In this document: positions 14,748 to 58,569 of the stretch, piece by piece
Layout: every line of letters begins with the position of its first letter
How positions within the stretch are numbered: position 1 is the first letter of the stretch
NCBI GenBank assembly: GCA_026014565.1
Contig: JAOZIB010000010.1
Span: 1-59,250, forward strand
Origin: Candidatus Bathyarchaeum sp.
Lineage (GTDB): Archaea > Thermoproteota > Bathyarchaeia > Bathyarchaeales > Bathyarchaeaceae
DNA: 59,250 nt
Reading direction: 5' to 3'
The notes under the pieces: generated by a model
What the model was told of the DNA's origin: nothing
The model's input: only the letters and a program-made list of their open reading frames with translations
Databases searched by the model: none
Translations under genes and position numbers: made by a program

Positions 14748-17693
14748 ATGAGTAGTTTTTTCAATAGTAAAAGCAAAAAAATGATTTTGGGTGTAATTCT
14801 TCTGGTAGTTCTTGTTGGTGCTTCCTATGGTGTTTACATTTCCTATCTTGTATCTGACCCTGAGCCAGAAGAAACGGAGCCTGAACCTACAACCGTTACA
14901 GTTACTGACGTTAATGGCGTTTCTGTGACTGTTACTTTGCCTGTGAACCGGATTGTTTCCCTTACAAATGGTGTTACAGAAATAATTTACGCCTTAGGTG
15001 GCGGCGACGCTGTAGTGGGACGAGATGCATCTTCTAATTTTCCGGCTGTAACCTCTGAAATTCCTGTTGTATACGAGTCGGCTTTAAACATGGAAGTTTT
15101 GACGGATTTGGATCCCGACCTGATTATTGCAGATGCCCGAATCAATGATGAGACTAGAGCTGAAATTGAAGAACTTCTTGAAGTTCCCGTGATTATTGAC
15201 AATCCTTCTCAGACAGACCGTGTTGAGCCTTTGATAACTAATCTTGGTTTGATTTTGAACAATCAGGAAACTGCAGATGAGTTACTTGGTTTCATTTCTC
15301 AGTATTCCAATATTGTTGCGGAACGTGTTTCAGCTTTAAGTGATGATGAAAAGCCTGTTGTTTACTATGAGTGGGTACGAGAATGGTTCAGCTGCAATAA
15401 CGCCAGTTTGCCTCATTGCATGTTAACTGATGCAGGGGCACTAAATCTGGCTGCAAATCAAATTACCACCTATCCAACCTTAAGTCCAGAATATGTTTTG
15501 GAGTGCAATCCTGACATAATTCTTCGAATAATTAGTAGTGCAAACCATACTGAAACAGAGTTCCAAACCTCGCGAGACGAAATAATGAATCGAACTGGAC
15601 TAATTGAAACAACAGCAGTTCAAGAGGGAAACGTCTACATCATGGATGGTTATCTGCGAACTGGAATACGAAACGTCATTGGGCTGGTAACTTTGGCTAA
15701 TTGTTTTCATCCTGACCTCTTTGAAGACATCGACCCAAACGCGGTTCATGAAGAACTAGTCCAAACGTTCTTTGGCACGAACTTGGAAGGCGTTTACTTT
15801 TTCCCTTCAGAACCTATTGAGCCTAAACCCGAAGGAGAAACCATAACTATTGTGGATGGAGATGAGGCTGAAGTTACCTTAACCCTTCCGGTGAATCGTA
15901 TTGGTTGTCTTAATGGTGGTTTAGCTGAAGTAATCTGTGCTCTGGGTGGAGAAGACAAAATTGTTGCCCGTACTGACGATGTTGCTTTTCCAGTTTCTCT
16001 TTTGGACACTCCCTCTGTAGGTCTAAACGCGGCTTCCGCTATCAATTTGGAAGTTTTAATGTCGTTGCATCCTGACTTAGTGGTTGCAAGTAGCGCCCTA
16101 GATGATGAAACCATAGAAATCATCAGAAGTTTTGGAGTTCCAGTCATAATAGAAAGCACATCCAACATTGACCGCTTAGAAACCATTGTAACTAATTTTG
16201 GTCAAATCTTGGATGCACCTACAAAGGCTGAGCAGATTCTTAGTAACAACGAATACTATACAAATATCGTTCAGGAACGGCTTCAAAACTTATCAACCGC
16301 CGAAAGGACGACCTTCTACTACGAATTTAGAAGAATCTGGTACAGCATGACCAACCAGACTAACATGGGAAAAATCCTAGACGATTGTGGTGGAGTAAAC
16401 ATTGCTTCTAATTCCTCAGTTAGGTATGCGACATTGAGCGCAGAATATGTTATTGAACAAAACCCTGAAGTGATTATATATTCCCTTTCTGGAACTACAA
16501 ACTTAACCGATTACCAGGCTGCCCTAAATGAGTTGCTAACCCGACCAGAACTACAAAACGTACCTGCAGTCAAAAACAACCGAGTTCATGTTTTCTATTA
16601 CTACCTTGGTGCAGGAATAAGATACCCTGTAGGTGAACTTTATTTTGCCAAGTGGTTCTACCCTGACTTGTTCGCAGATATTGACCCTAGTGCAGTACAT
16701 GAACAGCTTATTCGGGATTACTTTGGTGAACCCCTTGAAGGGACTTATGCATATCCAGAAACGGTTACTGTTGTGGATGCTTTGGGTAACAAAGTAACCA
16801 TAAACCTTCCTGTAAACCGAATCGTTAGCCTTACTGGTGGTTTAACAGAAATTGTCTGTGCCCTAGGGGCTGATAACCTAATTGTGGGACGTGGAGACTA
16901 TAGCACTTTTCCTCCTTCTGTTGTCGAAATTCCTGTTGCGAGTCCCAGTTCATACAGTGTTAACATGGAAACTTTGCTAGAATTTGAGCCAGATTTGGTT
17001 CTTGCGGACACAATGATGAAATCCAAACCTGAATATATCGAACAAATTCAAGCAGCAGGAATACCCCTAATCGTTGAAAACACCGCCAATATTTCCCGAA
17101 TTACGCCAATAATAAACACCCTTGGAGTTATCGTGAACAACCAAGAAAAGGCTACAGAACTTGTAGAGTGGATAGACCAATATGTTGACCTTGTCAAAGA
17201 GCGCACTGCAACACTATCAGAACATGAATTTCCATCTGTTTATATTGAATGGACTAGCAGCTGGAGTGCCATTGGTCCAGCCCATGCAATCGGTGAACTA
17301 ATGGCTACTGCCGGAGGAACAAACATTATTACTAACGCATCTGCAACAACCACAACAGTAAGCCCAGAGTTTGTGCTCACAGCAAACCCTGATTTCATGT
17401 TTGTGACAACCGCCTCAATGCCTGCTCCCACTGAAGTTTCTTTTTATGAAAACAAAATGGCTGATGTGCTCAGTCAAACCGGAATAAGCAGCACAACCGC
17501 AGCAACCGAAGAAAACATCCACCTTTACAGCTACCGACTAATCCAAGGAATCCGTTACCCCATTGGACTGCTATACTTTGCAGACTGGCTTCATCCTACC
17601 CTTTACGAAGACATCAACCCCGGTACAGTACTCGATAATATGATTGACCAATTCTTTGGAATTGAACTTGATGCAATCTACGTGTATCCGTGA
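14748..17693 (+). CDS. Exported protein of three tandem BtuF/FhuD-type substrate-binding domains
   Basis: 981 residues. A signal/anchor segment (residues 11-35) and a Pro/Glu linker lead to three homologous domains of about 300 residues starting near residues 48, 367 and 665. Each opens with a strand pair ending LPVNRI (V-x-LPVNRIVSLTNGVTEI, LTLPVNRIGCLNGGLAEV, INLPVNRIVSLTGGLTEI), continues with LDPDLIIAD/LHPDLVVAS/FEPDLVLAD and ends with a GIR-PIG/VG-Y-A-wFyPdLFxDIdP block. This is the class III binding-protein fold that delivers B12, heme or Fe-siderophores to ABC importers. A normal protein has one such domain. No BtuCD-type permease is adjacent; cobN follows. The promoter carries the 14595 dyad, suggesting metal- or cofactor-dependent repression. 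Confidence 0.9.
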   Translation: MSSFFNSKSKKMILGVILLVVLVGASYGVYISYLVSDPEPEETEPEPTTVTVTDVNGVSVTVTLPVNRIVSLTNGVTEIIYALGGGDAVVGRDASSNFPAVTSEIPVVYESALNMEVLTDLDPDLIIADARINDETRAEIEELLEVPVIIDNPSQTDRVEPLITNLGLILNNQETADELLGFISQYSNIVAERVSALSDDEKPVVYYEWVREWFSCNNASLPHCMLTDAGALNLAANQITTYPTLSPEYVLECNPDIILRIISSANHTETEFQTSRDEIMNRTGLIETTAVQEGNVYIMDGYLRTGIRNVIGLVTLANCFHPDLFEDIDPNAVHEELVQTFFGTNLEGVYFFPSEPIEPKPEGETITIVDGDEAEVTLTLPVNRIGCLNGGLAEVICALGGEDKIVARTDDVAFPVSLLDTPSVGLNAASAINLEVLMSLHPDLVVASSALDDETIEIIRSFGVPVIIESTSNIDRLETIVTNFGQILDAPTKAEQILSNNEYYTNIVQERLQNLSTAERTTFYYEFRRIWYSMTNQTNMGKILDDCGGVNIASNSSVRYATLSAEYVIEQNPEVIIYSLSGTTNLTDYQAALNELLTRPELQNVPAVKNNRVHVFYYYLGAGIRYPVGELYFAKWFYPDLFADIDPSAVHEQLIRDYFGEPLEGTYAYPETVTVVDALGNKVTINLPVNRIVSLTGGLTEIVCALGADNLIVGRGDYSTFPPSVVEIPVASPSSYSVNMETLLEFEPDLVLADTMMKSKPEYIEQIQAAGIPLIVENTANISRITPIINTLGVIVNNQEKATELVEWIDQYVDLVKERTATLSEHEFPSVYIEWTSSWSAIGPAHAIGELMATAGGTNIITNASATTTTVSPEFVLTANPDFMFVTTASMPAPTEVSFYENKMADVLSQTGISSTTAATEENIHLYSYRLIQGIRYPIGLLYFADWLHPTLYEDINPGTVLDNMIDQFFGIELDAIYVYP

Positions 17694-45970: not shown

Positions 45971-46339
45971 TCATTTAATTTTTTCTTCAATTTTTTTGAT
46001 TACATTTTCGGGAAAATAACCTGCAATATTAAAGGCAACCTCGTAAGCGAGCTTTTGTTCAATTTCTAAAAAGTTAGTAAACAGCTTCGTTAATAGTTCA
46101 TGTTTCTTGAGGGAAATTAATGCGATATGTTTTCCCTCTTCAGTAAGAGTGACACCAACATATGGTTGATGATGAACTAGTCCTTCATTTTTCAGTTTAG
46201 TTACTGTGTTGGTTATTGTACCTGAAACAACACCAAAAAATTTAGCAAGGTCACCCGTTCTAGTAACACCATTTCTCTGTTGAAGAAGGTATATGCCCTC
46301 AAGGTAACGTTCAAAACACGGAGTGACTTGTTTGGTCAT
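45971..46339 (-). CDS. DtxR/MntR-type metal-dependent regulator (short form)
   Basis: 122 residues. YLEGIYLLQQRNGVTRTGDL, then AKFFGVVSGTITNTVTKLKN, EGLVHHQPYVGVTLTEEGKH and IALISLKKHELLTKLFTNFL follow DtxR/MntR domain 1 and the start of domain 2, including the H-E-L metal ligand helix. The SH3-like third domain is absent. It sits inside the feo operon, between the FeoC-like gene and the flavodoxin. It is the obvious candidate to bind the TTAGGT-GA-ACCTAA dyads of the feo promoter, repressing when iron is plentiful. Confidence 0.85.
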   Translation of the reverse strand: MTKQVTPCFERYLEGIYLLQQRNGVTRTGDLAKFFGVVSGTITNTVTKLKNEGLVHHQPYVGVTLTEEGKHIALISLKKHELLTKLFTNFLEIEQKLAYEVAFNIAGYFPENVIKKIEEKIK

Positions 46340-46376
46340 TAAAATTCACAAAAAAATAAAAAATAAAAAGGGAAGG

Positions 46377-46649
46377 CTACTTAGCCTGCAAGTAAGTTTT
46401 TCCTTTTTCGGTAATCACGTATACTGCAGGAGTGTTTGCATTCATTGTGCACCCCTTGCAACTTGAACAGCACATACAGGTTTTGGTTGTTTTTGTGGTG
46501 GTGCTGTCGATTTTTTGCAGGTAGCCCTTAGACGAAAGAAGAGAAAAAACGCTCTCCAGAGTTGCGTGTTGGATTCCTACCCTTTCCGCAATGGCGGTCT
46601 TGCTTAGTAGACCACCATCACGAACTAGGGTTAGAATTTCTTTTATCAC
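46377..46649 (-). CDS. FeoC-like winged-helix protein with a Cys cluster
   Basis: 90 residues. VRDGGLLSKTAIAERVGIQH, then ATLESVFSLLSSKGYLQKID is a winged helix like FeoC. The wing loop contains TCMCCSSCKGCTMN, five Cys within eight residues, followed by VYVITEKGKTYL. FeoC proteins carry a Cys loop that can hold an iron-sulfur cluster and regulate FeoB or its transcription. GTG at 46649 has GGAGAG upstream, and its T-G overlaps the end of the preceding gene region, so it is in the same transcript. Confidence 0.8.
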   Translation of the reverse strand: MIKEILTLVRDGGLLSKTAIAERVGIQHATLESVFSLLSSKGYLQKIDSTTTKTTKTCMCCSSCKGCTMNANTPAVYVITEKGKTYLQAK

Positions 46650-46650
46650 G

Positions 46651-47124
46651 TTATTCTCTCCATTTCTTTTTGGTGAAGGACAGATACGTTCCAGGCAATG
46701 CTGCGAGGAACAACCATATTCCGGGTCTTAGGTCATCTAACCATATCCATTCTAGCCAATCTTCGAACTGAAACAGATATCCCACGCCGTTAGCCAGCAT
46801 TATCGCCATGTATACCGCAAAGAAAACTGCTGCCAGAAGGCTGCCCACGAGAAGGAAGGAGATTCCTTCGCGGTTGCCTTGGGCTTGCTGTTTTACTCCA
46901 GTGAGGTATACTGTGCCGATGATTATCAGCATGACTCCGCCGAATACGTCGGGGGGAACAACTGTTACTCCAGCTATTTCCAGTGCCGGAATAACAGAGA
47001 CCCCGGTTCCGACGAGGTCTCCCCAGCCGACTAATATTTCTAGGAGTCCGAAGACTGCGTAGAGTATTCCAATTACTACCGAGTATACTGCTAGTTTTGT
47101 TCCAATGTTTTTGTTGAATCCCAT
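46651..47124 (-). CDS. Four-helix membrane protein of the feo operon
   Basis: 157 residues. Helices near 12-32 (VVIGILYAVFGLLEILVGWG), 58-75 (DVFGGVMLIIIGTVYLTG), 88-110 (ISFLLVGSLLAAVFFAVYMA) and 128-146. No metal motif is visible. AGAGGTGA precedes the ATG, and it begins 15 bases after feoB. Its place between feoB and the FeoC-like gene suggests a role in ferrous iron uptake, perhaps as an accessory subunit, but no family with known function is recognised. Confidence 0.7.
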   Translation of the reverse strand: MGFNKNIGTKLAVYSVVIGILYAVFGLLEILVGWGDLVGTGVSVIPALEIAGVTVVPPDVFGGVMLIIIGTVYLTGVKQQAQGNREGISFLLVGSLLAAVFFAVYMAIMLANGVGYLFQFEDWLEWIWLDDLRPGIWLFLAALPGTYLSFTKKKWRE

Positions 47125-47139
47125 TTTGTTTTCACCTCT

Positions 47140-49128
47140 TTATGCAAATCCTAATAGTGCTCCTATTCCAGTGATGACCAAGCCAACAACGTATGCCACC
47201 ACCAGAGTTAACAGCACTTGGAAGATTGTCCACTTCCATGAGCCGGACTCTTTTTTCATGGTGCCGATTGTTGCGACACATGGAATATACAGCAGTGTGA
47301 AAGCCATCAAAGTGAAACCGATGACCGGATTGTAGTTTGCCACTAGGGCGCCTGCAATCGCTGTTTCGCCTTCAACTGCGTATATTATTCCAAGCGCTTC
47401 TACTGCGATTTCTTTCGCCAACAAGCCAAAGACCAGTGAAGATACGATTCTCCAGTCAAAGCCTAACGGCGCAAACAGTGGAACAAGGGCTTGACCTATC
47501 ATTCCTGTATATGACATTTCCACTTCAGCGCCCCACGGGAAGGTTGACAAGAACCACAACATTATGGCACCTGCCAATAGGTATGTTCCCGCCTTCTTGA
47601 TGAATTGAAGACCTCGTTCCCACATGTGGGTTCCAATGGCGCGAATGGTAGGTGCTTTGTATAAAGGCAATTCCATGATGAATGGTGCGGGTTCGCCTTT
47701 GAGAACTGTTTTTCGTAACAGAAGGGCTAATCCGATTGCTACTGCGATGCCAATGAAATACATTGACCAAACTGCTGCTGTTGCCATTGAACCAAAGAAT
47801 GCTCCTGCAATCAGGATGTATACGGGTAGTCGTGCACCGCATGAAATGAATGGATTGACTAGTAGCGTAATCAGTCGATCTTTTTTACCTTCAATGCTTC
47901 GTGTAGCCATCATAGCGGGGACGTTGCAACCAAAGCCTAACAACATAGGAATGAATGAGCGCCCATGCAATCCAAGTTTGAACATTATGCGGTCCATTAT
48001 GAAAGCAGCTCGGGCGAGGTATCCACTGTCTTCCAGTATGGCGATTCCAAGGAACAGGAAGAATATCGGCGGTATGAATGTCAGTATGAATCCTAGTCCA
48101 CTGAAGATTCCGTCACCCACAAAGGACGCGACAATTTCGTTTGGAATAACCGTTGATGCTTCGGCAAGGGATTCAAAAACTAAACCAATTATCTCCATAA
48201 ACGGAGCAGAAGCATCATAAGCAAATCTGAACATGGCCCAAAACAGGGTTAAGAAAACAGGGATGCCCAAATACTTGTGTATAAACACCTTGTCGAGCAT
48301 GTCAGTTATGGTCCACTTTTTTGTGCCTTTAACTAAACTCGATGACAGTACTTCGCTAACAAGGTCATATCGTTTGTCCGCAAGAACAATTTCAGGGTCG
48401 TCTCCAATGGTTTTTTGTACTTGATTGATAGCGTCTTGAATTTCTTTTTGGATTTTACTGCCTTCGATTTTTTCAAGGGCATCATCATCTTTTTCCAGCA
48501 GTTTAATAGCAAGCCATCGTGGGGGATACTTTTTTGTTAACGCTAAATCTTTTTCCACAACCCTTGCAACAGAATCTATCTTGGTTTCAAGGTCTTTTCC
48601 GTAGTCCATTTTAGGCTTAGTTATCAACACTTGTTTCTTCGTAGCATAAACAATCTCATCTTTGAGTTTGTCTAGACCCTCTTTAGCAGTTGCCACTGTG
48701 GGAACCACGGGCACACCGAGCTGTTTTGAAAGTTTTTTCACATCAATTGTGTAGCCTTTCTCCTTGGCAATGTCGAACATATTCAATGCGACAACTACGT
48801 TTGCTTCCAATTCCAGCAATAAGAATGTGAAATACAAATTTCGTTCAATGTTTGAAGCGTCGATAATGTGAACCACAACGTCAGGTTTTTCCTCCACGAT
48901 ATAATTACGTGAAACAAGCTCGTCCACGGCACGAGCAGTTAAGCTGTATGTTCCAGGCAAGTCAACAATTTTCAGTTCAGTTCCTTTGTGAACACATTTT
49001 CCTTCTTTTTTCTCAACAGTTTTTCCCGGCCAGTTTCCAACATGTTGCCTGGCACCAGGCACAAGGCTATTGAATATAACCGATTTTCCAACGTTAGGGT
49101 TTCCGATCAAAGCAACAGTTTTTGGCAT
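47140..49128 (-). CDS. feoB: Ferrous iron transporter FeoB
   Basis: 662 residues, full length. The G domain has G1 GNPNVGKS (residues 9-16), G3 DLPGTYSL and G4 NMFDIAKEK in place of the usual NKxD, followed by the helical GDI-like region. The membrane part shows the conserved gate blocks LGIAILEDSGYLARAAF, LGFGCNVPAMMATRSI and VNPFISCGARLPVYIL, then the second half with LAKEIAVEALGIIYAVEG. It imports Fe(II). GGAGG lies before the ATG, and the ATG overlaps the upstream feoA stop (TGATG). Confidence 0.96.
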   Translation of the reverse strand: MPKTVALIGNPNVGKSVIFNSLVPGARQHVGNWPGKTVEKKEGKCVHKGTELKIVDLPGTYSLTARAVDELVSRNYIVEEKPDVVVHIIDASNIERNLYFTFLLLELEANVVVALNMFDIAKEKGYTIDVKKLSKQLGVPVVPTVATAKEGLDKLKDEIVYATKKQVLITKPKMDYGKDLETKIDSVARVVEKDLALTKKYPPRWLAIKLLEKDDDALEKIEGSKIQKEIQDAINQVQKTIGDDPEIVLADKRYDLVSEVLSSSLVKGTKKWTITDMLDKVFIHKYLGIPVFLTLFWAMFRFAYDASAPFMEIIGLVFESLAEASTVIPNEIVASFVGDGIFSGLGFILTFIPPIFFLFLGIAILEDSGYLARAAFIMDRIMFKLGLHGRSFIPMLLGFGCNVPAMMATRSIEGKKDRLITLLVNPFISCGARLPVYILIAGAFFGSMATAAVWSMYFIGIAVAIGLALLLRKTVLKGEPAPFIMELPLYKAPTIRAIGTHMWERGLQFIKKAGTYLLAGAIMLWFLSTFPWGAEVEMSYTGMIGQALVPLFAPLGFDWRIVSSLVFGLLAKEIAVEALGIIYAVEGETAIAGALVANYNPVIGFTLMAFTLLYIPCVATIGTMKKESGSWKWTIFQVLLTLVVAYVVGLVITGIGALLGFA

Positions 49129-49382
49129 CAGTTTTCAACCTCCTCAACCATTATTTTTGTGGCAACACCCCTGCCAAAAGCAACGCGGGAGTCTTTGACT
49201 TCAACAACTAAAGGTCCTCCGTGACCTGAGTTAGAGCAACAATGTGAACAAATCACAGTTACTTCAGAATCGCGGGTGAGCCCCATATCATTTAGTCGTC
49301 GGATTAGACTTTTTCCGCCATGGATGTTGGTGATTTTTCCTTTAGCGCCTACAGAAAGAAACGCAAGAGGAACCTCCATCAT
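49128..49382 (-). CDS. feoA: FeoA-domain protein (second feoA)
   Basis: 84 residues with the SH3-like FeoA plan: VPLAFLSVGAKGKITNIHGG, then SLIRRLNDMGLTRDSEVTVI, a Cys/His insert (CSHCCSNSGHGG) and VEVKDSRVAFGRGVATKIMV. The insert with three Cys and a His is unusual for FeoA and could bind metal. ATG at 49382 overlaps the stop of the first feoA by four bases, with GGAGG 8 bases upstream. Confidence 0.92.
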   Translation of the reverse strand: MMEVPLAFLSVGAKGKITNIHGGKSLIRRLNDMGLTRDSEVTVICSHCCSNSGHGGPLVVEVKDSRVAFGRGVATKIMVEEVEN

Positions 49383-49618
49383 TGTTGGTCCTCCAAAGAA
49401 ACGTAGATGCATTCTGCCTCTTTTTTGCGCAGGGTCAAATTGTAGTCACGGATTTCAAATTCCACAGGGTCACCTAACGGTGCTCTGCGGATCACTTTGA
49501 TTTTTGAGCCCCGGACAATGCCCATGTCCATTATTCGGCGCCTTGTCGCGCCACTTCCTTTAATGTTAATTACAATGGCGTTTTGTCCGGGTTCTAGTTT
49601 GTTTAGTTGTAGTTCCAT
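49379..49618 (-). CDS. feoA: FeoA-domain protein (first feoA, operon head)
   Basis: 79 residues: QLNKLEPGQNAIVINIKGSG, then TRRRIMDMGIVRGSKIKVIR, APLGDPVEFEIRDYNLTLRK and an end IYVSLEDQQ. This is the normal FeoA size and pattern, thought to modulate FeoB. It is the first gene of the seven-gene operon. The leader contains a DtxR-like box at 49634 only 16 bases upstream and a second at 49675. Two decayed copies of this gene start lie at 51366 and 54701. Confidence 0.93.
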   Translation of the reverse strand: MELQLNKLEPGQNAIVINIKGSGATRRRIMDMGIVRGSKIKVIRRAPLGDPVEFEIRDYNLTLRKKEAECIYVSLEDQQ

Positions 49619-49633
49619 CTATCACACCAAATT

Positions 49634-49647
49634 TTAGATCAATCTAA
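49634..49647. promoter_or_regulatory. DtxR-like box A of the feo promoter
   Basis: TTAGAT-CA-ATCTAA, perfect 6-bp arms. On the reverse strand it follows a TATA-like AAATAAAAAA directly and lies at the expected transcription start, so binding would block initiation. The matching position in decayed copy 3 (54828) has TTAGAT-AA-ATCTAA, and copy 2 has a worn form near 51538. Confidence 0.65.
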
Positions 49648-49674
49648 TTTTTTATTTCACTACAGTAAACACTG

Positions 49675-49688
49675 TTAGGTGAACCTAA
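49675..49688. promoter_or_regulatory. DtxR-like box B of the feo promoter
   Basis: TTAGGT-GA-ACCTAA, a perfect dyad close to the known iron box of DtxR/IdeR regulators (TTAGG...CCTAA). It lies upstream of the TATA element on the reverse strand. Copies 2 and 3 keep it as TTAGGTGTACCTAA (51572) and CTAGGTGAACCTAA (54855). Confidence 0.75.
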
Positions 49689-49905
49689 ATCTTACCCGAA
49701 CAAAAATAGGACACACCCAAAAAAACCGAGAAAAATTAGGTCTAAACAAAACAAACCTAACTATATTAATCAAATTTCATCCATGAACCTAACGAGTAAA
49801 AGAAAGAAAATAGAATATATTGAAACCCAATCGTTGTTGTCAAACAAAATCTTTTTTTCTATCTGATTTAAAAAACAGTTTTTTGAATTGATGAAAAGGT
49901 AAAAG

Positions 49906-51201
49906 TTATTTGTTTTCGGCGAATTCCCATGCGATATTGGCTTTCCAGAGGTCTCCAACTTCGGTTAATCTGATTTCTTTTTCATTTACTTGAATTAAGC
50001 CTTTTTCGCTGAGCCTTTTTATCTGTTCTGGGTAAACGTCTTCGGGTAGCTTTCCAAATTTTTCTTTGAATTCAACTTTATTCACAGGAAGACGCAGGTA
50101 AAGCTTTGTCATAAATTTTCGCATCATATCTCTGTCTGTTGATTTCAAGAGTTGAGCAATTGGGAATCTTCCCTCCTTGACGGCAGTAATATATCCTTTT
50201 GTTAAATCTAAATTAGAGTAAGAAAAAGTTTGAAAATAGCCCATGAAACATCCTGCCCCTGCCGTTAAGATGCCTGCCCAAGGCCAGCCGTTTAGACATT
50301 TTTCTTCAGCATGCCATTTCACGCGGGAATAACGGTCATGACCAATCGGCTTGTAGCCCGCCTCAGTAAATAAATCATAGGCTGCAACGTACATCTTTTT
50401 CTCTACTTCTGTGCTGGGCTGAGGCGGTACCTTCCCAGATTGTAGTTCTCTGTACAAAACTGTGTCTGGATCTACGTTAAGGCAATATGCGTCAACTTCT
50501 ACATCCAGTTGGATTGCTGTCTTCACAGTATCAATCCAACTCTGCAATGTCTGTCCAGGGATATTATACATGATATCTATACACACGCAGAGTCCCAGTT
50601 TTTTGGCAAATCGAATTTCGTCTTTTACCTGTTCTGCGCTATCAGGAAGATTTAACATTCTTCGAAGGTTATCGTCGAAGGTTTGGGCACCCATGTCTAT
50701 CTGGTAGACGCCATATTCTGCTGCTGAAACCAGTTTTTCTTTGGATAGGCTTCTAGAGGAACCCGAGATTTTAATGTAGTACTCGTCCATCAGATTAAAG
50801 TGGTCCTCACAGAACCCTATTAGACCAAACATTTGCTCTTTGGTCATGAGACTTGGTGTTCCTCCGCCAAGAGATATTTCATCAAATTTGCTGGTTTTGA
50901 TGTAATTTGTTTTGGAGTACATCAATAGTTCCTTCTTCAGAGCTTCAAGGTATATTTTCATTCGGTCACTTGAGTAGGCATTATTTGGGTAGTAACAAAA
51001 AGTGCATTTGGAGTCACAGAAGGATACCCATGGCTGCATCTCCATGATTTTGTTGGAAGTGTTCTCAGTTGATAGAAACTCCATGAATTCTTTATATGTT
51101 TCAGGGGAGATGTCAGCGTAATCTCGATATGTGTATGGTGGCCAGCTCTCTCTTTTGGTGTAGGTGTTCTCTTTTTCTACTTGTGGGCGAGACTGTTTCA
51201 T
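49906..51201 (-). CDS. Radical SAM protein of the HemN/HemW/HutW family
   Basis: 431 residues. The cluster motif is C-x3-C-x2-C in WVSFCDSKCTFCYYPN (near residues 61-68), followed by EISLGGGTPSLMTKEQ, IDMGAQTFDDNLRRML and VCIDIMYNIPGQTLQSW, the HemN-type order. A winged-helix-like C-terminus (YPEQIKRLSEKGLIQVNEKE, IRLTEVGDLWKANI) matches the HemN_C domain. Members make or handle heme; HutW/ChuW types open heme anaerobically to release iron. Location in an iron island downstream of a duplicated iron-box promoter favours heme-iron use, though oxygen-independent coproporphyrinogen oxidase or heme chaperone roles are possible. Confidence 0.82.
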   Translation of the reverse strand: MKQSRPQVEKENTYTKRESWPPYTYRDYADISPETYKEFMEFLSTENTSNKIMEMQPWVSFCDSKCTFCYYPNNAYSSDRMKIYLEALKKELLMYSKTNYIKTSKFDEISLGGGTPSLMTKEQMFGLIGFCEDHFNLMDEYYIKISGSSRSLSKEKLVSAAEYGVYQIDMGAQTFDDNLRRMLNLPDSAEQVKDEIRFAKKLGLCVCIDIMYNIPGQTLQSWIDTVKTAIQLDVEVDAYCLNVDPDTVLYRELQSGKVPPQPSTEVEKKMYVAAYDLFTEAGYKPIGHDRYSRVKWHAEEKCLNGWPWAGILTAGAGCFMGYFQTFSYSNLDLTKGYITAVKEGRFPIAQLLKSTDRDMMRKFMTKLYLRLPVNKVEFKEKFGKLPEDVYPEQIKRLSEKGLIQVNEKEIRLTEVGDLWKANIAWEFAENK

Positions 51202-51365
51202 GTTGTATTAACGCTCCAAACTATATTACTAAGTCACTCTTGAATTACTGCCCTTGAACTACGGGCAAAATCAATTTGGACGTAACGCTGTTAATTTTGT
51301 GCGTTTGCGCAAGCACAATCTGTTGATGCTTAGAAAGCCTCTTTTTATACAGTACGATCACAGTA

Positions 51366-51521
51366 TCACCAATCAAGAAAATCTAAAGTCCTAAAATACT
51401 CTGATTTCTGAACTGCTGACAATTTCCATTTCCCTGATTCGGGGCTTGATTGAGACGCGTCCTTTGTGTTTATGACGATGGATTTTTGTCTAGGTCCTAG
51501 TTTGTTTAGTTGTGCTTTCAT
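51366..51521 (-). pseudogene. Decayed feoA start, copy 2
   Basis: ATG at 51521 reads KAQLNKLGPRQKSIVINTKD, matching the first feoA (ELQLNKLEPGQNAIVINIKG) over about 20 residues. It then drifts into unrelated codons and stops at TGA after 51 residues. The upstream DNA with the iron box is also homologous to the feo promoter. It now forms the 5' leader of the radical SAM gene 165 bases downstream. Confidence 0.75.
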
Positions 51522-51571
51522 TTAACACACCACTTTTAGGGCTCTCTAAAGTTTACTAAAGTAAACAAGGA

Positions 51572-51585
51572 TTAGGTGTACCTAA
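51572..51585. promoter_or_regulatory. DtxR-like box B, copy 2
   Basis: TTAGGT-GT-ACCTAA, a perfect dyad at the same place relative to the feoA remnant as in the intact operon. The flanks (ATCTTGCCCGAAAAA and AAAAATTAGGTTTTATC on one side) also match the feo promoter DNA at 49689-49740. Transcription leftward would reach the radical SAM gene. Confidence 0.7.
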
Positions 51586-52156
51586 ATCTTGCCCGAAAAA
51601 CTGTAGATTACACTCACAAAAACCAACAAAAATTAGGTTTTATCGGAACAAACCTAATAACGCCAATCTTTTGAACATGTACAATAAGCCCTAACAAAAC
51701 CGAGGAAAAAGCAACAAATCAATTGGTACAGTCGTTCAAATCAATGTACATATGTTCCATTACGATTTGTCAAATTGAGCAATACGGCATTTTCACCAGT
51801 TTTGGAACTTCTGACGTTAGGCTATTAAGTCTAGTGATTTATATCCTAGTTTTGGCGACAATTATGAAATCGATCCGAAGAAATGTTGTACCTAGGTTGC
51901 ATACACACTTTACATTGGTCTACCGAGCAAAAGTTACAATCTAAAATTGCCAAATGTTTCTTTTCATTACATATGAAATTGCATCCGTAATACCATTGAT
52001 TGTTGATCAATCAGAATTTTTCACTTGAATAGCACTTAATATCTGTGGACAGGTGATGTTTTATTCGGCAATATCATCTTTTTCAAAACTCCACCCGATA
52101 AACAGATAACAACGGGACTTTGCTTTTCTAGAAACTTCGCAGGATGATTTTTCCAA
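51586..52156. other. Duplicated feo upstream DNA and suf promoter region
   Basis: The first 80 bases continue the homology to feo promoter DNA. A forward open frame at 51723-51944 is Ile/Thr-rich without a ribosome site and is not called. A dyad TGATTG-TTGAT-CAATCA lies near 52000 and may belong to the rightward suf promoter. Nothing else is supported. Confidence 0.4.
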
Positions 52157-52438
52157 ATGCTTATTGGAATTGCAGTGTTCATCGGAATGGCTGGTCATCA
52201 TTGTGACCTTGATTGGACTCTTGTAGTCCAATTTGTTAATCCTTGCAGAAACAATGTCTGCATCAGAACGATGATAGTTTCAAAAACTATGAAAAAACAT
52301 CCAGATATTTTTTCATATTCTAAAGGCTCTGCAGCAGATAAAGAATCAATGTTAAAAAAAACTGTATCCAAAAACTTATTGTTCAAATATATGTTTGTCC
52401 TTAATTTAGGTGTGATGAAGGCAGGGAAACGACGATGA
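52157..52438 (+). CDS. Hypothetical 93-residue protein upstream of sufC
   Basis: ATG at 52157 opens 93 codons whose TGA overlaps the sufC ATG (ATGA), the usual sign of an operon. The N-terminal half is hydrophobic with GHHCD and C-x4-C (CRNNVC); the C-terminal half is basic (KTMKKHPDIFSYSKGSAADK, MKAGKRR). I do not recognise it, and the overlap could be chance. If real it is an Fe-S assembly accessory with possible metal ligands. Confidence 0.4.
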   Translation: MLIGIAVFIGMAGHHCDLDWTLVVQFVNPCRNNVCIRTMIVSKTMKKHPDIFSYSKGSAADKESMLKKTVSKNLLFKYMFVLNLGVMKAGKRR

Positions 52439-53184
52439 ATATGCTAGAGGTTCATAACCTTAAGGTAAAGGTGAATAACAAAGTCATCATTAATAATGCC
52501 AATTTGGAACTAGCTGCAAAGAAGAACTATGTTATGTTTGGACCAAATGGGTCCGGAAAAACAACACTTATCAATGCAATAATGGGTCTTCCTCAATACA
52601 AAATAGTTTCAGGAAAAATTTACTTCATGGGTAAAGACATTACCACCAAAAGCGTTGAAGAACGTGCTAAACTGGGTTTAGCCCTTGCTTTTCAGCATCC
52701 GCCTGAAATCAGTGGTATTACGCTTTCATCGATGTTGAAATTGTGTGTTAGCAAGGGACCTAAAGATGAGTTTAGTGCCGAAGAGGAAGACTTGATAAAT
52801 GCTTTCAATCTAGGTAAGTTTTTGGACCGAGATGTTAATGTGGGTTTTTCGGGAGGTGAACGAAAAAGAGCTGAGATTCTTCAAATTTTGCTCTTGAAAC
52901 CGAGACTCCTTCTTTTGGATGAACCAGATTCAGGCGTAGATGTTGAAAGTCTTAGGTTAATTAGTGAACAGGTTCAAAGGTACATTGATAATAGTGGAAG
53001 CACTGCAGTTATTGTTACCCACAAAGGGGATGTGTTGGATTACATAAACGCAGAATATGCTTGTGTTCTAATGAAAAATTCTGTTTACTGTTTTGCTAAT
53101 CCCAAGTGTATCTATGAGACAATCAAAAAAAGAGGTTATGAAGAATGTATAGCGTGTCAGAAGCGAACAACCGAGGGGTGGTAA
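52435..53184 (+). CDS. sufC: Fe-S cluster assembly ATPase SufC
   Basis: 249 residues. Walker A GPNGSGKTTL (36-45), the SufC-type Q-loop region LALAFQHPPEISGITLSSML, signature FSGGERKRAEILQ, Walker B LLLLDEPDSGVDVESL and switch His in VIVTHKGDVLDYI. It pairs with SufB to build iron-sulfur clusters, as in the minimal SufBC systems of archaea. Start ATG at 52435 or 52441. The sufB start follows after one base. Confidence 0.94.
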   Translation: MNMLEVHNLKVKVNNKVIINNANLELAAKKNYVMFGPNGSGKTTLINAIMGLPQYKIVSGKIYFMGKDITTKSVEERAKLGLALAFQHPPEISGITLSSMLKLCVSKGPKDEFSAEEEDLINAFNLGKFLDRDVNVGFSGGERKRAEILQILLLKPRLLLLDEPDSGVDVESLRLISEQVQRYIDNSGSTAVIVTHKGDVLDYINAEYACVLMKNSVYCFANPKCIYETIKKRGYEECIACQKRTTEGW

Positions 53185-53185
53185 C

Positions 53186-54310
53186 ATGGCTAACGAAAAC
53201 TCGTTAACAAAGATTTCCCCTAACATACTTAAAGATGGTTATAACGTTGGCATGGACTTAAATGAAGAAAATCGCTCTGGAACATTATTACATGTTGACC
53301 AAAACACAATATACACTGCAATCAATGAGTACTTCAAAGGCAAAATAGAGATAATGGATACAAAAAAAGCTCTAGAAAAGTATTCGTGGCTTCAAGAGTA
53401 TATGTGGAGACTAGTTGACCCGAATAAAGACGAATTCACACAAAAAGTAAAGGAAGAATTCAGTGGTGGATATTTCATTCGGATATTACCGGGTGTGGAA
53501 GTGACCTTGCCACTCCAGTCCTGTATTATGATTACCAAAAAAGATTCGGAGCAAAGAATCCACAATATCATTATTGCTGAAGAGGGTTCCAAAGCAAATA
53601 TCATAACAGGATGCATTCAACACTTAGCTGATGAAGCGGCTAGACATCTGGGGGTTTCTGAAATTTATGTAAAAAAAGGAGCTACACTGAATTTAACGAT
53701 GATACATAACTGGACGGAAAAAACTTTTGTCAGACCTAGAAGTGCAACCGAAATAGAAGATGGAGGAAAGTTTATTTCAAATTATATTTGTTTGAATCCA
53801 GTGAATGATGTGCAGATGTACCCTGTGGCATTCTGTAATGGCAATAATTCACGGGTTTCTTTCAATTCAGTTTTGTACGGTCACAAAAATTCTTCTCTGG
53901 ATATTGGTTCAAGAGCTGTTCTAAATGGAAAAGGGAGCAAAGCAGAGTTGGTTACTCGGGCTATTGTTAGAAGAGGTGCTACAATTTTCTCTCGAGGTAA
54001 AATGGAAGGAAACAATTCAGAATGCAAAGGTCACTTGGAATGTAGAGGACTGGTTCTTGATGAGGAATCTTACCTAGAAGCTATACCTGAACTTCTGGTG
54101 AAGAAGGGGGGTGCAGAATTGACTCATGAAGCCGCGATAGGGAAGATATCAGAAAAGGAAATAGTGTATCTCATGACTAGGAGGCTTTCCAGAGATGAAG
54201 CAATTTCATTGACTATTCGAGGCTTCATGAATGTAGATGTAATGGGTCTGCCAGACGTCATATCAACAAAAATCAATAAAATTACAGAGTTGGTAGCCGA
54301 AGCTAGCTGA
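53186..54310 (+). CDS. sufB: Fe-S cluster assembly scaffold SufB/SufD
   Basis: 374 residues, shorter than bacterial SufB (about 480), as in minimal archaeal systems. The parallel beta-helix core has GSKANIITGCIQHLADEAAR, then NSVLYGHKNSSLDIGSRAVL and SECKGHLECRGLVLDEESYL. The C-terminal block GGAELTHEAAIGKISEKEIV, then YLMTRRLSRDEAISLTIRGF carries the His and Glu/Cys-region ligands and the SufC contact. No sufD, sufS or sufU is next to it, so a homodimeric SufB2C2 complex is probable. Confidence 0.93.
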   Translation: MANENSLTKISPNILKDGYNVGMDLNEENRSGTLLHVDQNTIYTAINEYFKGKIEIMDTKKALEKYSWLQEYMWRLVDPNKDEFTQKVKEEFSGGYFIRILPGVEVTLPLQSCIMITKKDSEQRIHNIIIAEEGSKANIITGCIQHLADEAARHLGVSEIYVKKGATLNLTMIHNWTEKTFVRPRSATEIEDGGKFISNYICLNPVNDVQMYPVAFCNGNNSRVSFNSVLYGHKNSSLDIGSRAVLNGKGSKAELVTRAIVRRGATIFSRGKMEGNNSECKGHLECRGLVLDEESYLEAIPELLVKKGGAELTHEAAIGKISEKEIVYLMTRRLSRDEAISLTIRGFMNVDVMGLPDVISTKINKITELVAEAS

Positions 54311-54700
54311 ACTTTCTTGTTTTCTTGAAAAGATTCAGCACAATTAGAACACAAACCAATTTGGTGTTTGTATGTGCATTAATTATTGCATTCACATGAA
54401 ACAGTATGGCTAGTAAATTTCAAATCAAAATCATTTCTTTTCATGAATGTCACAAGAACTTTCAAGTGGTTACAATTTTTCTACAACTACTTACTGGATT
54501 CCTTGAAGTTTTTATGAAAATAACATAACAGCATCCGTGCTCCTGCTGGAGAGGATATATACTGTGAAGTACCGTTCAAAACAAGGGGGAATGTCCTGAA
54601 TCATAAAAATTCACAAGATGCCAAAAAATAACGAAATCTACTTGGTATGTAGATGATTTTTTTTGGTACCTGGCAGAAAGAAGTGCAAAGGGAATTTCTA
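54311..54700. other. Intergenic DNA between sufB and the third feo copy
   Basis: About 390 bases, AT-rich. The first bases after the sufB stop hold no clear hairpin. From 54540 a repeated-codon-free stretch leads into the decayed feoA copy. I see no gene here on either strand. Confidence 0.35.
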
Positions 54701-54802
54701 TCATTGTTGTCTCTCCAAGGACATGTAGATGCGTCTGCTTCTTTTGATGTTAACTAAGACAGAATTTTGTCCTGTTTCTAGTTTATTTAGTTGTAATTGC
54801 AG
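54701..54802 (-). pseudogene. Decayed feoA start, copy 3, with internal deletion
   Basis: The reverse strand reads LQLQLNKLETGQNSVLVNIK, then RSRRIYMSLERQQ and TGA, matching the two ends of the intact first feoA (ELQLNKLEPGQNAIVINIKG ... CIYVSLEDQQ) with the middle 45 residues lost. The start codon is CTG instead of ATG. Overlapping its stop at 54704, a second start reads MIEIPFALLSAR, matching the second feoA start (MMEVPLAFLSVG), before it decays. So the copy once held both feoA genes in the same overlapping layout. Confidence 0.8.
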
Positions 54803-54827
54803 CTATCACACCAACTTTTAGATAAAT

Positions 54828-54841
54828 CTAACTTTTTTATT
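54828..54841. promoter_or_regulatory. DtxR-like box A, copy 3
   Basis: TTAGAT-AA-ATCTAA, perfect arms, at the position of box A of the feo promoter relative to the feoA remnant. The gene it served has decayed. Confidence 0.6.
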
Positions 54842-54854
54842 AAGATAAATTTAG

Positions 54855-54868
54855 CTAGGTGAACCTAA
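54855..54868. promoter_or_regulatory. DtxR-like box B, copy 3
   Basis: CTAGGT-GA-ACCTAA, one mismatch from the 49675 box. The following ATCTTACCTGAACAAAAATG and AAAAAAACCGAGAACAAG also match the DNA beyond the 49675 box. If active, the promoter points leftward toward the 3' end of sufB. Confidence 0.65.
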
Positions 54869-55021
54869 ATCTTACCTGAACAAAAATGGAGCGCATCTAA
54901 AAAAACCGAGAACAAGTAGGTTTAAACAGGACAACTTATGGTGTAATCCGATTTTAATCATGAAATAAGAAAATATAAAAAAAGGGGGAACAAAAATATG
55001 CCGTGTTTGTTTACTGGTTTG

Positions 55022-56767
55022 TCAGAATTTCCATCCATGTATTTTGCGTTGTTCATTCCACATGCGGTAGTATAGGTTTTTGTTTTTCAGAAGGGTTTGG
55101 TGAGTTCCTTGTTCGACAACAGATCCGTTCTCTAGGACGATTATGTTATCTGCATGAACAACAGTGTTTAGGCGGTGGGCAATAACAATAACAGTTTTGT
55201 GTTTGACTAAGTCATTGATGGCCTCTTGGATGTGCAACTCGTTTTCTGGGTCAAGTGAAGCTGTCGCTTCGTCAAGCAGAATGATTGGAGCGTCTTTTAG
55301 TATTGCTCGTGCTATGGATATGCGTTGTTTTTCGCCTCCAGACAAAGTGGACCCGCCTTCTCCGATTATTGTGTCGTATCCCTTGGGAAGTTTTTGGATA
55401 AATTCGTGACAACGTGCCTTCTTTGCTGCGTTAATTACGTCATCAATTGTTGCATCTGTTTTCCCGACGCGAATGTTGTTTATGATGGAGTCATTAAATA
55501 GATACACATCTTGAAACACCATAGAAACAGAAGCAAGTACAACATCGGGGTCATATTTTCGTATATCATGGTCGCCTAAGAGTACCGTTCCTTTTGAAAC
55601 ATCCCAGAAACGTGCTATAAGGCGTGTCATTGTTGTTTTTCCGGAACCAGATGGACCCACCAGTGCAACAAATGATGCTTCTGGAATTGTAACAGTTACA
55701 TTGTTTAGCACATTGGTGTCGTGATACCGGAAAGTTACATTGTCGAACTGAACGTTATAGTTTTCAGGTTTTAGTTCAGGGTTTGTACCTTTAAGAACTG
55801 GTGTCTTTCGTAGGTCTTCGATACGGTCAACACTGAGTTGAAAATAGTTGATTTCGCCAACAAATATCAGAGCTTGAAGGAACGGCTCATAAACGCGTGA
55901 ACCAATTATGAGGAACATAACATAGACCGGTAGAGATACCGTGCCAGCAAACAAGAAGGTGAGACCAAATAAGATGATGACGGCAAGTCCACTACGAAGA
56001 ACAAAACTAGCAAACAGTGCGATTGGTCCTGCTCCCGCTTCAAGTTTTATGCATACAGATTTAAAGTTTCTAAATGTTTTCTCTAAACGTTCAAATTTTG
56101 TGCCCGTAAGATTAAATGCCTTAATCAGCTTCATGCCATGCAAATACTCTAACATGCGCGACGTTGCTTCTCTTTTTGCTTTTTGTTGTTTTTTTCCAAA
56201 ATGTTTGATAAACTTGATTGCAATCACAAGTATAGGCAACGATAAAGGAATAACTGCCGCAGAAAGAAGAGCCAACTGCCAGTTCTGAAACGCAAGGAAA
56301 ACTAACAACAGTGATGGCATTGCAACTGCTCCAACAAGTTGGGGAAGCAAATGGCTCAATAGCTGCTCTACGTTTGCATAATCGCTTAGTAGATATGCGC
56401 CGATGGTTCCAGGGTCACGAGTATTAAAGAAACCCATAGGAAGTTGTCGGATATGATTGGATATAGTAAGGCGTCCTTCTGCACAAATCTCATAGGTTCC
56501 ATTGTACGTTTTTTTGTAAGCGATTTTGCTAACAATAAAAAGTAGCACAAGGGAAACAGCAAGTGCCACACTAATTCCAATTAGTGCGGGGATATTAAGG
56601 GATGTTCCTGGATTCTGAAGCGGTTTAAAGAACTCCCATACGCCCATAAGAAGCACACCATATGGAGCACCACGAAATGCGTATTCCAGTAGGGTCCAAA
56701 GAATCATTGAACGTAACCGTTCAGGATGTCCAAGCGTTGCTGCACGCATAAGGGAAAAAATTTTCAT
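55022..56767 (-). CDS. ABC transporter with fused membrane and ATPase domains (IrtB/YbtQ-like)
   Basis: 581 residues. Six helices in residues 20-300 form the exporter-type membrane domain, ending in the LSVDRIEDLRKTPVL linker. The ATPase has Walker A GPSGSGKTTMTRL, signature LSGGEKQRISIARAIL, Walker B ILLDEATASLDPENE and switch His in VIAHRLNTV. Its ATG overlaps the stop of the preceding ABC gene by four bases, so the two form a heterodimer. Pairs of this type next to FecE-like ATPases in iron loci import metal-siderophores (IrtAB, YbtPQ), the probable role here; export of a compound is the alternative. Confidence 0.9.
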   Translation of the reverse strand: MKIFSLMRAATLGHPERLRSMILWTLLEYAFRGAPYGVLLMGVWEFFKPLQNPGTSLNIPALIGISVALAVSLVLLFIVSKIAYKKTYNGTYEICAEGRLTISNHIRQLPMGFFNTRDPGTIGAYLLSDYANVEQLLSHLLPQLVGAVAMPSLLLVFLAFQNWQLALLSAAVIPLSLPILVIAIKFIKHFGKKQQKAKREATSRMLEYLHGMKLIKAFNLTGTKFERLEKTFRNFKSVCIKLEAGAGPIALFASFVLRSGLAVIILFGLTFLFAGTVSLPVYVMFLIIGSRVYEPFLQALIFVGEINYFQLSVDRIEDLRKTPVLKGTNPELKPENYNVQFDNVTFRYHDTNVLNNVTVTIPEASFVALVGPSGSGKTTMTRLIARFWDVSKGTVLLGDHDIRKYDPDVVLASVSMVFQDVYLFNDSIINNIRVGKTDATIDDVINAAKKARCHEFIQKLPKGYDTIIGEGGSTLSGGEKQRISIARAILKDAPIILLDEATASLDPENELHIQEAINDLVKHKTVIVIAHRLNTVVHADNIIVLENGSVVEQGTHQTLLKNKNLYYRMWNEQRKIHGWKF

Positions 56768-58569
56768 GCTACAGCCCTCCCTATTTTTTCAATTGTCCAT
56801 TCTCTTGAACGCGAATACGTATCCCACATAGTTTTGTACAAACCATCAACGGCAACTAAATCGTCATGTTTTCCAGTTTGCACTATCTGTCCGTTATCAA
56901 TTACAAGAATCTGATCAGCGTCCACCACGGTAGACAGCCGATGTGCAATCACGATAACCGTTTTGTTTTTGATGAGCTGAGCAAGAGCTTCAACAATTTT
57001 TCCTTCGTTTTCAGGGTCAGCGTAGGCAGTTGCTTCATCAAGAACAACGATGGGTGCATTCTTCAAAATCGCGCGTGCGATACTAATTCTTTGTTGTTCG
57101 CCTCCTGACAGATACGTTCCCCCTTCTCCAATAAGGGTGTCATAACCGTGAGGAAGATTCATGATGAACTCATGACACTGTGCTGCCTTCGCCGCAGCTA
57201 TAACATCCTCTTTTGATGCAGTTTGGTTACCCATACGGATGTTTTCTTCAATTGTGTCAAAAAACAGAAAACCATCTTGGAAAACAAAGGACACATAGTT
57301 CATCAGAGTTTCTGTTCGCAAGTCTTTGATGTCTACACCACCAATACGAATCGCTCCAAAATTAACGTCCCAGAATCGAGCAGTGAGAAAACCAATAGTT
57401 GTTTTCCCAGCACCTGATGGACCCACCAAAGCAGTTACAGTTTTAGGTTTTGCAATAAATGAGACATTGTTTAGCACATTCGAATCAGTATAGCCAAAAG
57501 TCACATTATCAAATTCTACGGAGAAATCTTTAGGTTGATGTTCAAAATCGGTTTCCGTTATCTCCGGAGTATAAAGAATCTCATCGACTCTTTCAACACC
57601 AATGCTGATTTCGCGTAAGTAGCCGCTAACAAACATGAGTTTAAGAAATGGGAAAAACATTCCTCCGCCTACAATAAGAAATAGGAATACTGTAGGCATA
57701 AATTGCTCATAGGTGTTCATTCCAGACAGCAAGAATACTGCAACAGGGATAATGAAAACTAAAGATGAAGAGATGACCGTAAGGAAAGAAGGATATATTT
57801 GAGCGTATTCGTTGGTTAGTTTAATGATAAACTTTCTGTAGGATGAAATTGCCGTTTTTAGACGCTTAAAAGAGTCTGACGACGCGTTAAAGACTTTTAC
57901 TACGGGCATTCCTCGGACGTACTCGACTACAGCAGCGTTCATCGTTTCAAGAGAATTGTGGTACTGCCTGTATGTGTCAACTGATGACATCATTTTCATT
58001 TGAACCGCAAATGCAAAGGGAATTGGAACAAAAGCAGCCAGTGCGAGGCGCCAGTCTGCAAAGAATAGGTATATCATCATAATTATTGGAAATACGACTG
58101 CGCTTGTTATGTCCGGAATATGATGAGCAACAAATAGTTCCACTTTTTCAACGTCTTCAGACATTACCTTTTTGATTTTGCCGCTAGCTTTTTGCGTAAA
58201 AAAGCCCATGGATAATTTGGTGAGTTTTTTAGCGATTTTTACTCTCATTTCATAAAGAATATTGAACGCTGCAATATGGGAAAGCATTGATGATGTATAA
58301 AGTAAAATGCCCCATGAAGCAAACGAAATTAAACTTATGAATCCTAGATTATAGAGTAACGCGCTGTTAAGTTGTGAAATGTCAGTTGCATGTTCAGCAA
58401 GCTCAACAATTATCATATACACGGTAACAACCGGAATGAATTGTACCACAGTGGCAATTACAGCCAAAGCCATTGACGCAAAAAGCCACCATTTTTTTGT
58501 TCCCGCTATTTCTATAAGCCGACGGAACCCAGTTTTTCTTTTTGGTTTTTGTGTTTCAGTATTTTTCAT
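56764..58569 (-). CDS. ABC transporter with fused membrane and ATPase domains (IrtA/YbtP-like)
   Basis: 601 residues. A Lys/Arg-rich start (KPKRKTGFRRLIEIAGTKKW) precedes six helices, with the coupling region LSMGFFTQKASGKIKKVMSE. The ATPase has Walker A GPSGAGKTTIGFL, signature LSGGEQQRISIARAIL, Walker B VVLDEATAYADPENE and switch His in VIAHRLSTV. The Walker B-adjacent AYADPENE is typical of the IrtA/YbtP side. It starts at 58569, overlapping the upstream 81-residue gene by ATGA, and pairs with the following ABC gene. Confidence 0.9.
   Translation of the reverse strand: MKNTETQKPKRKTGFRRLIEIAGTKKWWLFASMALAVIATVVQFIPVVTVYMIIVELAEHATDISQLNSALLYNLGFISLISFASWGILLYTSSMLSHIAAFNILYEMRVKIAKKLTKLSMGFFTQKASGKIKKVMSEDVEKVELFVAHHIPDITSAVVFPIIMMIYLFFADWRLALAAFVPIPFAFAVQMKMMSSVDTYRQYHNSLETMNAAVVEYVRGMPVVKVFNASSDSFKRLKTAISSYRKFIIKLTNEYAQIYPSFLTVISSSLVFIIPVAVFLLSGMNTYEQFMPTVFLFLIVGGGMFFPFLKLMFVSGYLREISIGVERVDEILYTPEITETDFEHQPKDFSVEFDNVTFGYTDSNVLNNVSFIAKPKTVTALVGPSGAGKTTIGFLTARFWDVNFGAIRIGGVDIKDLRTETLMNYVSFVFQDGFLFFDTIEENIRMGNQTASKEDVIAAAKAAQCHEFIMNLPHGYDTLIGEGGTYLSGGEQQRISIARAILKNAPIVVLDEATAYADPENEGKIVEALAQLIKNKTVIVIAHRLSTVVDADQILVIDNGQIVQTGKHDDLVAVDGLYKTMWDTYSRSREWTIEKIGRAVA

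Follow-up and report, generated by a model that had tools for sequence, protein, structure and literature searches.

Local duplication of the feo promoter and its probable capture by a fec-type operon in a Candidatus Bathyarchaeum genome

INTRODUCTION

Bacteria provide established cases of promoter capture by tandem duplication, through which acquired genes become activated (PMC11111574 and work it cites). For the iron sensors of the IdeR/DtxR type, the 14-bp sequence TTAGGNNNNCCTAA has been proposed as the redefined target of one dimer (PMC8464063). Signals of archaeal DtxR-family regulons precede siderophore/fhu-type ABC genes in haloarchaea, according to work of Leyn and Rodionov (2015) as cited in PMC11349517. 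In the literature that we searched, no work on iron regulation was found for the archaeal group studied here.

The window, i.e., the whole stretch of DNA that was analyzed, comprises 59,250 nucleotides (C10:1-59250) of Candidatus Bathyarchaeum sp., which has a 1.81-Mb genome in a draft assembly of 43 contigs. Contig C10 ends at 61932, 2.7 kb past the window end, and the FeoB of the locus shares 92% identity with its counterpart in Candidatus Bathyarchaeum tardum. The locus resembles the bacterial cases (PMC11111574) in having direct-orientation copies near the source gene, a probably acquired operon behind one of them, and leftovers that are decaying; it differs in that the event would be old, natural, and archaeal, involves a regulated (iron) promoter, and is read from sequence alone. 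The new part would be a natural archaeal instance of promoter capture with its intermediates still visible, while the process and the type of box were already known. If our reading is correct, the locus is a readable fossil record of archaeal regulon growth, in which an iron promoter was copied locally, one copy was adopted, and two are dying, and it offers Bathyarchaeia an iron box that can be tested.

RESULTS AND DISCUSSION

The functional feo operon and its promoter

The functional feo operon and its promoter, termed copy 1 herein, comprised the following features (window coordinates).

45971-46339, minus strand: short DtxR-family gene downstream of feo (Pfam Fe_dep_repress, E 4e-13)
47140-49128, minus strand: feoB of the functional operon (Pfam FeoB_N, E 5e-64)
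49379-49618, minus strand: feoA1, intact, 79 aa, the first gene of the feo operon (ORF; Pfam FeoA, E 3.6e-23)
49619-49760, minus strand: copy 1, functional promoter region of feo, reaching from the distal dyad up to the start codon
49634-49647, no strand assigned: copy 1 box 2, TTAGATCAATCTAA, flanked by the TATA-like element and the start codon
49675-49688, no strand assigned: copy 1 box 1, TTAGGTGAACCTAA, directly upstream of the TATA-like TTTA
49736-49760, no strand assigned: copy 1 distal dyad, TTAGGT-N13-ACCTAA

DNA 79-86% identical to the copy 1 promoter lies upstream of feo in four relatives (G002, G003, G006, and G007), and the feo promoters of the genus have a common layout, with the distal dyad TTAGGT-N13-ACCTAA, box 1 beside TTTA, and box 2 near the start codon. 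Box 1 did not vary among the functional feo heads of the genus that were compared, and the box aligned with copy 1 box 2 reads TTAGATTGACCTAA in the relatives. The near-repeats CCTAATTTTTCTCGG and CCTATTTTTGTTCGG, located between the distal dyad and box 1 in copy 1 and the other copies, are also well conserved and are possible candidate sites for another factor. Apart from one tRNA, an Rfam scan of the locus returned no RNA family. Within the feo operon, between feoB and a winged-helix gene, 46651-47124 encodes a 157-aa membrane-like protein with no Pfam or NCBIfam match.

Two relic copies of the feo head within the window

Two further feo heads, at 51398-51657 and 54526-54964, matched the functional head (49379-49760) at 74-76%, which bears out the proposal of a sequence-only reading of the window that the promoter and feoA start exist in additional copies. 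The similarity extended through promoter and coding DNA and was not limited to the dyads. Self-BLAST aligned 49494-49760 with 51398-51657 (73.5% over 268 bp, E 1e-42) and 49554-49787 with 54738-54964 (76.2% over 235 bp, E 2e-41).

51398-51521, minus strand: copy 2, feoA1 relic, with ATG kept (51521) and a 1-bp deletion causing a frameshift
51522-51657, minus strand: copy 2, relic feo promoter (73.5% to copy 1, by alignment), with box 2 at 51536-51549, box 1 at 51572-51585, and the distal dyad at 51633-51657
54526-54662, minus strand: copy 3, relic of the DtxR gene start and its upstream DNA, equivalent to 46264-46401
54647-54802, minus strand: copy 3, feoA1 relic running into the overlapping feoA2 start
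54803-54939, minus strand: copy 3, relic feo promoter (76.2% to copy 1), with box 2 at 54818-54831, box 1 at 54855-54868, and the distal dyad lost

Both coding parts have decayed, as had been noticed, but the loss of the start codon (ATG to CTG) is confined to copy 3, whose feoA1 also carries an in-frame internal deletion. Copy 3 does retain the overlapping second feoA start, with the feoA1/feoA2 junction at 54647-54745, and it proved larger than the 54690-54940 first given for it, extending over about 440 bp (54526-54964) and reaching the start of the regulator gene. The latter part aligned with 46264-46401 at 66% over 142 bp (self-BLAST, E 2.7e-8) and reads MIQDIPPCFERY versus MTKQVTPCFERY. 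Because remnants of feoA1, feoA2, and dtxR follow each other in operon order, the whole feo operon appears to have been duplicated and then collapsed by internal deletions. Copy 3 joined copy 1 in a FastTree phylogeny of feo heads (local support 0.92), which argues for its origin from copy 1, and its branch was about five times longer, as for a sequence released from constraint. A fifth, badly decayed copy was considered at 51974-52046 and rejected, its local score of 51 compared with a background of 52-56 elsewhere on the contig.

A fourth copy and the distribution of the iron box

A fourth promoter copy lies at C10:61776-61924, 2.5 kb past the window, and is 77-84% identical to copy 1. Its homology stops just after box 1 and TTTA, with box 2 lost; the distal dyad is present in copies 2 and 4, as in the relatives. 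All four copies are on the minus strand within 12.1 kb, and no significant homology between copies was found in the flanks beyond the promoter. The idea that the copies act as mobile promoters finds no footing in this arrangement, as all share one orientation and lie together in 12 kb at the ancestral feo locus; a search of the genome for dispersed or oppositely oriented copies, as expected of a mobile element, found none outside these 12 kb. The same segments had been suggested as worth seeking in related genomes; the four relatives with a promoter match carry one copy each, at feo, and B. tardum has a single copy.

Copy 1 box 1 agrees with TTAGGNNNNCCTAA, the consensus for iron sensors of the IdeR/DtxR type, and this 14-bp core is exact in copies 1, 2, and 4, with one mismatch in copy 3. 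Only four exact TTAGGNNNNCCTAA sites occur in the whole 1.81-Mb genome, three of them in the 12-kb locus. Allowing at most one mismatch to TTAGGTNNACCTAA gave six sites genome-wide; as four of these cluster within 12.1 kb (P about 3e-5), chance is excluded. Across the order, the box precedes feo, or a DtxR gene followed by feo, and often adjoins a TTTATA-like element; it is present at feo in G002, G003, G006, and G007 as well as at feo heads of other families in the order. The box has both the position at iron-gene promoters and the conservation between species that are expected of an iron box. In comparison with the one-dimer box of IdeR/DtxR proteins (PMC8464063), the exact sequence recurs in copies 1, 2, and 4 before feo and fec-type iron genes, whereas the sites here are bathyarchaeal and putative, and two candidate DtxR-family regulators lie near feo in this lineage. 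The likeness to archaeal DtxR-family metal regulons, as cited in PMC11349517, is that signals precede siderophore-type ABC genes; the difference is that nearly all recognizable sites here are in one 12-kb locus and derive from one ancestral promoter. A second exact box in the B. tardum-like genomes (G002:C1:270031 and orthologues) was dismissed as a chance match, since it lies within an aroD-like reading frame.

The candidate regulators are the 45971-46339 protein and DtxR2 (C40:46908-47372); in many Bathyarchaeia, relatives of the latter are adjacent to feo. DtxR2 may be the actual regulator rather than the short 45971-46339 protein, the one that had been singled out for gel shift or ChIP.

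Copies 2 and 3 decay evenly

A box that looks intact within relic DNA should not be called selected until its decay has been tested. The 14-bp box was indeed kept at 13 to 14 positions, as had been observed, with 14/14 in copy 1 and 13/14 in each of copies 2 and 3. In copy 2 both 6-bp arms of box 1 are intact and the change is in the free centre; in copy 3 one arm base has changed. We scored only columns at which three functional feo heads agree, namely those of this genome, G002, and G003. In copies 2 and 3 pooled, changes were found at 15/88 operator, 19/122 spacer, and 28/155 coding columns (operators versus spacers, p=0.85; operators versus coding, p=1.0). Eight of the 18 invariant columns of the distal dyad have changed in copy 3. 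An apparent excess of coding over noncoding decay in copy 3 came only from counting deleted columns, with substitutions being equal. By codon position, the changes in copy 2 were evenly spread (10/43, 8/41, and 6/42); between the functional feo genes of this genome and those of G002 they numbered 6, 2, and 18.

These values go against the selective keeping of a regulatory half that the sequence-only reading had proposed, and equal decay of boxes and coding parts, which it had named as evidence to the contrary, is what copies 2 and 3 display. Box 1 alone had 2/28 changes in the two copies (p=0.28 against the rest), a comparison with little power for a single 14-bp box. Retention of 13/14 positions is not unusual at about 18-20% divergence (binomial P 0.25 for copy 2). 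There may be weak constraint on box 1 alone in copies 2 and 3.

The same numbers bear on the suggestion that copies 2 and 3 are kept as decoys, that is, as operators that draw off the DtxR regulator by titration or load it along the locus. Box 1 at 13/14 in both copies, and the 1/24 changes in its arms against about 0.18 per site elsewhere, speak for this suggestion. Set against it are the lack of significant excess conservation in any of the three comparisons, operators no better retained than spacers or coding DNA, and the destroyed distal dyad of copy 3; even the raw trend in box retention is biased, because the box was chosen for being conserved. We regard decoys as very unlikely. It is just as improbable that the relics still bind the regulator and that copies 1 to 4 form a spaced operator cluster over 12 kb, titrating or cooperatively loading the DtxR protein, in which case the entire iron regulon of this archaeon would have grown on the spot out of a single promoter.

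The radical SAM gene behind copy 2

49906-51201, minus strand: ChuW/HutW-like radical SAM gene downstream of copy 2

Copy 2 could be a working promoter or upstream operator of this gene, placing heme breakdown under iron control. It is found about 370 bp upstream in the sense direction, with box arms and distal dyad intact, and the best family match of the gene is to anaerobic heme degradation HutW (NCBIfam TIGR04107); the syntenic paralogue at C40:18955 is without such a promoter. The HutW score of 183.9 bits, however, is below the curated cut-off of 400, and the copy 2 promoter decays like its dead coding part. The gene also need not depend on copy 2, because it has a nearer TATA-like element of its own, TGTATAAAAAG (51340-51352), and a separate dyad, TTGTGC-TTGCGCAAAC-GCACAA. 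We consider control by copy 2 unlikely. The dyad, at about 51297-51319, is just downstream of TGTATAAAAAG in the gene's own promoter (51297-51352) and is probably the operator of another regulator.

In a genus tree the 49906-51201 gene formed a deep branch separate from C40:18955, which is the vertically inherited gene (91% to B. tardum-like genomes); the former is a deep-branching paralogue or xenologue. This placement would suit a scenario of lateral transfer, with foreign feo heads arriving from other Bathyarchaeum species along with neighboring iron genes, so that the extra copies would not be duplicates of copy 1. Copy 2 likewise has several bases in common with the G003 promoter, with a spacer A 81% identical to that of G003 versus 74% to copy 1, and its placement in a small tree of heads was unsupported, which together suggest that copy 2 may be older or laterally acquired. 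But support for any origin of copy 2 was negligible, and the grouping of copy 3 with copy 1 and the ancestral position of copy 4 (see below) leave only a small chance that the copies as a set arrived from outside.

Copy 4 at the ancestral feo position

Behind copy 4, on the same strand, are genes for a periplasmic binding protein, a FecCD-type permease, a gapped ATPase, and two exporter-type ABC proteins, an operon of the ferric-siderophore type (fecBCD plus the two ABC genes).

55022-58569, minus strand: two exporter-type ABC genes, the distal part of the operon starting with fecB outside the window (ORFs; Pfam ABC_membrane and ABC_tran)

A scaffold gap of 100 N (C10:59251-59350; L025:3252-3351) lies inside the fecD ATPase gene, just past the window end. 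The fecB start codon is about 118 bp behind the copy 4 box, and inspection of these 118 bp by eye revealed no other clear TATA-like element. The nearest relatives in the genus had about 45% (FecC) and 30% (FecB) identity, and no close relative was found there, nor was a donor found; on these low values, the fec operon was probably acquired. Copy 4 had 0/32 changes in the distal dyad and box 1 versus 5/36 in the spacer (p=0.055), a pattern as expected of a promoter that may be in use, though box 2 is lost. Re-use of the feo promoter is supported by this fourth copy before the fec-type operon, beyond the window that the sequence-only reading covered, and not by copies 2 and 3. Elsewhere in the window, at 14925-17620, a long reading frame (985 aa, around 16005-16760) contains internal DNA repeats and has weak similarity to FecB-like periplasmic binding proteins.

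In B. tardum, a second DtxR gene and a znuABC-like set are located directly upstream of the feo promoter. The same DtxR2 and znuABC-like neighbors are on contig C40 in this genome, and the ends of C10 and C40 have a 55-mer in common that is found nowhere else in the genome. The two contigs are therefore very probably adjacent, with the join being an assembly overlap, and since C40 carries the upstream feo neighbors of B. tardum, synteny places copy 4 at the ancestral feo position. Homology between the upstream flank of copy 4 and that of B. tardum feo was not significant (P 0.07), and so only synteny was used for this assignment. Between copies 4 and 1 now lie the fec operon with its two ABC genes, sufBC, and the ChuW/HutW-like radical SAM gene.

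A draft of 43 contigs, a contig end at copy 4, and an N run in fecD could raise the suspicion that the copies reflect strain variation or repeats that were wrongly assembled. Yet they differ by 16-26%, lie between different genes within one contig, and the C10-C40 end overlap is unique, making an assembly artefact barely credible.

Probable promoter capture at a duplicated feo locus

The evidence taken together points to a probable history in which the feo locus was duplicated, a fec operon that was probably acquired captured one promoter, and two other copies were left as dying relics. Homology, positions, decay rates, synteny, box distribution, and the single copy in relatives are direct observations; the order of duplications, promoter activity, regulator identity, iron response, and capture of copy 4 by fec are what we infer from them. 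Local, same-orientation duplications would have multiplied the head of the feo operon, with the whole operon being duplicated at least once, and foreign or paralogous iron genes would have come to lie between the copies. Copy 4, at the ancestral position, would now serve the fecBCD and ABC operon, while copy 1 would still drive feo; copies 2 and 3 would be relics in decay, their promoters eroding as fast as their coding DNA. An Fe(II)-loaded dimer of the DtxR type, sitting at copies 1 and 4 on the 14-bp box beside the TATA-like element, is predicted to block TFB/TBP, and iron shortage would lift this block, putting two uptake operons under one iron switch.

Contig C40 carries a second feo system, which interrupts the intergenic DNA by which DtxR2 and feo are separated in B. 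tardum. It includes a gene (L094:7712-8314) for one protein with a DtxR metal-binding/dimerisation domain and a FeoA domain, overlapped by a second feoB (L094:8301-10190). Two intergenic stretches beside DtxR2 and these feo genes, C40:47459-47599 and C40:50319-50449 (L094:7460-7600 and L094:10320-10450), both start with TTAGGGCAA[C/T]CTATACATGA and then diverge. The B. tardum counterpart folded no better than shuffled sequences. Each of the two C40 stretches has a long GC-rich hairpin (z -3.3 and -3.7 versus shuffles) with no Rfam match, and they represent a possible small-RNA or structured-leader element.
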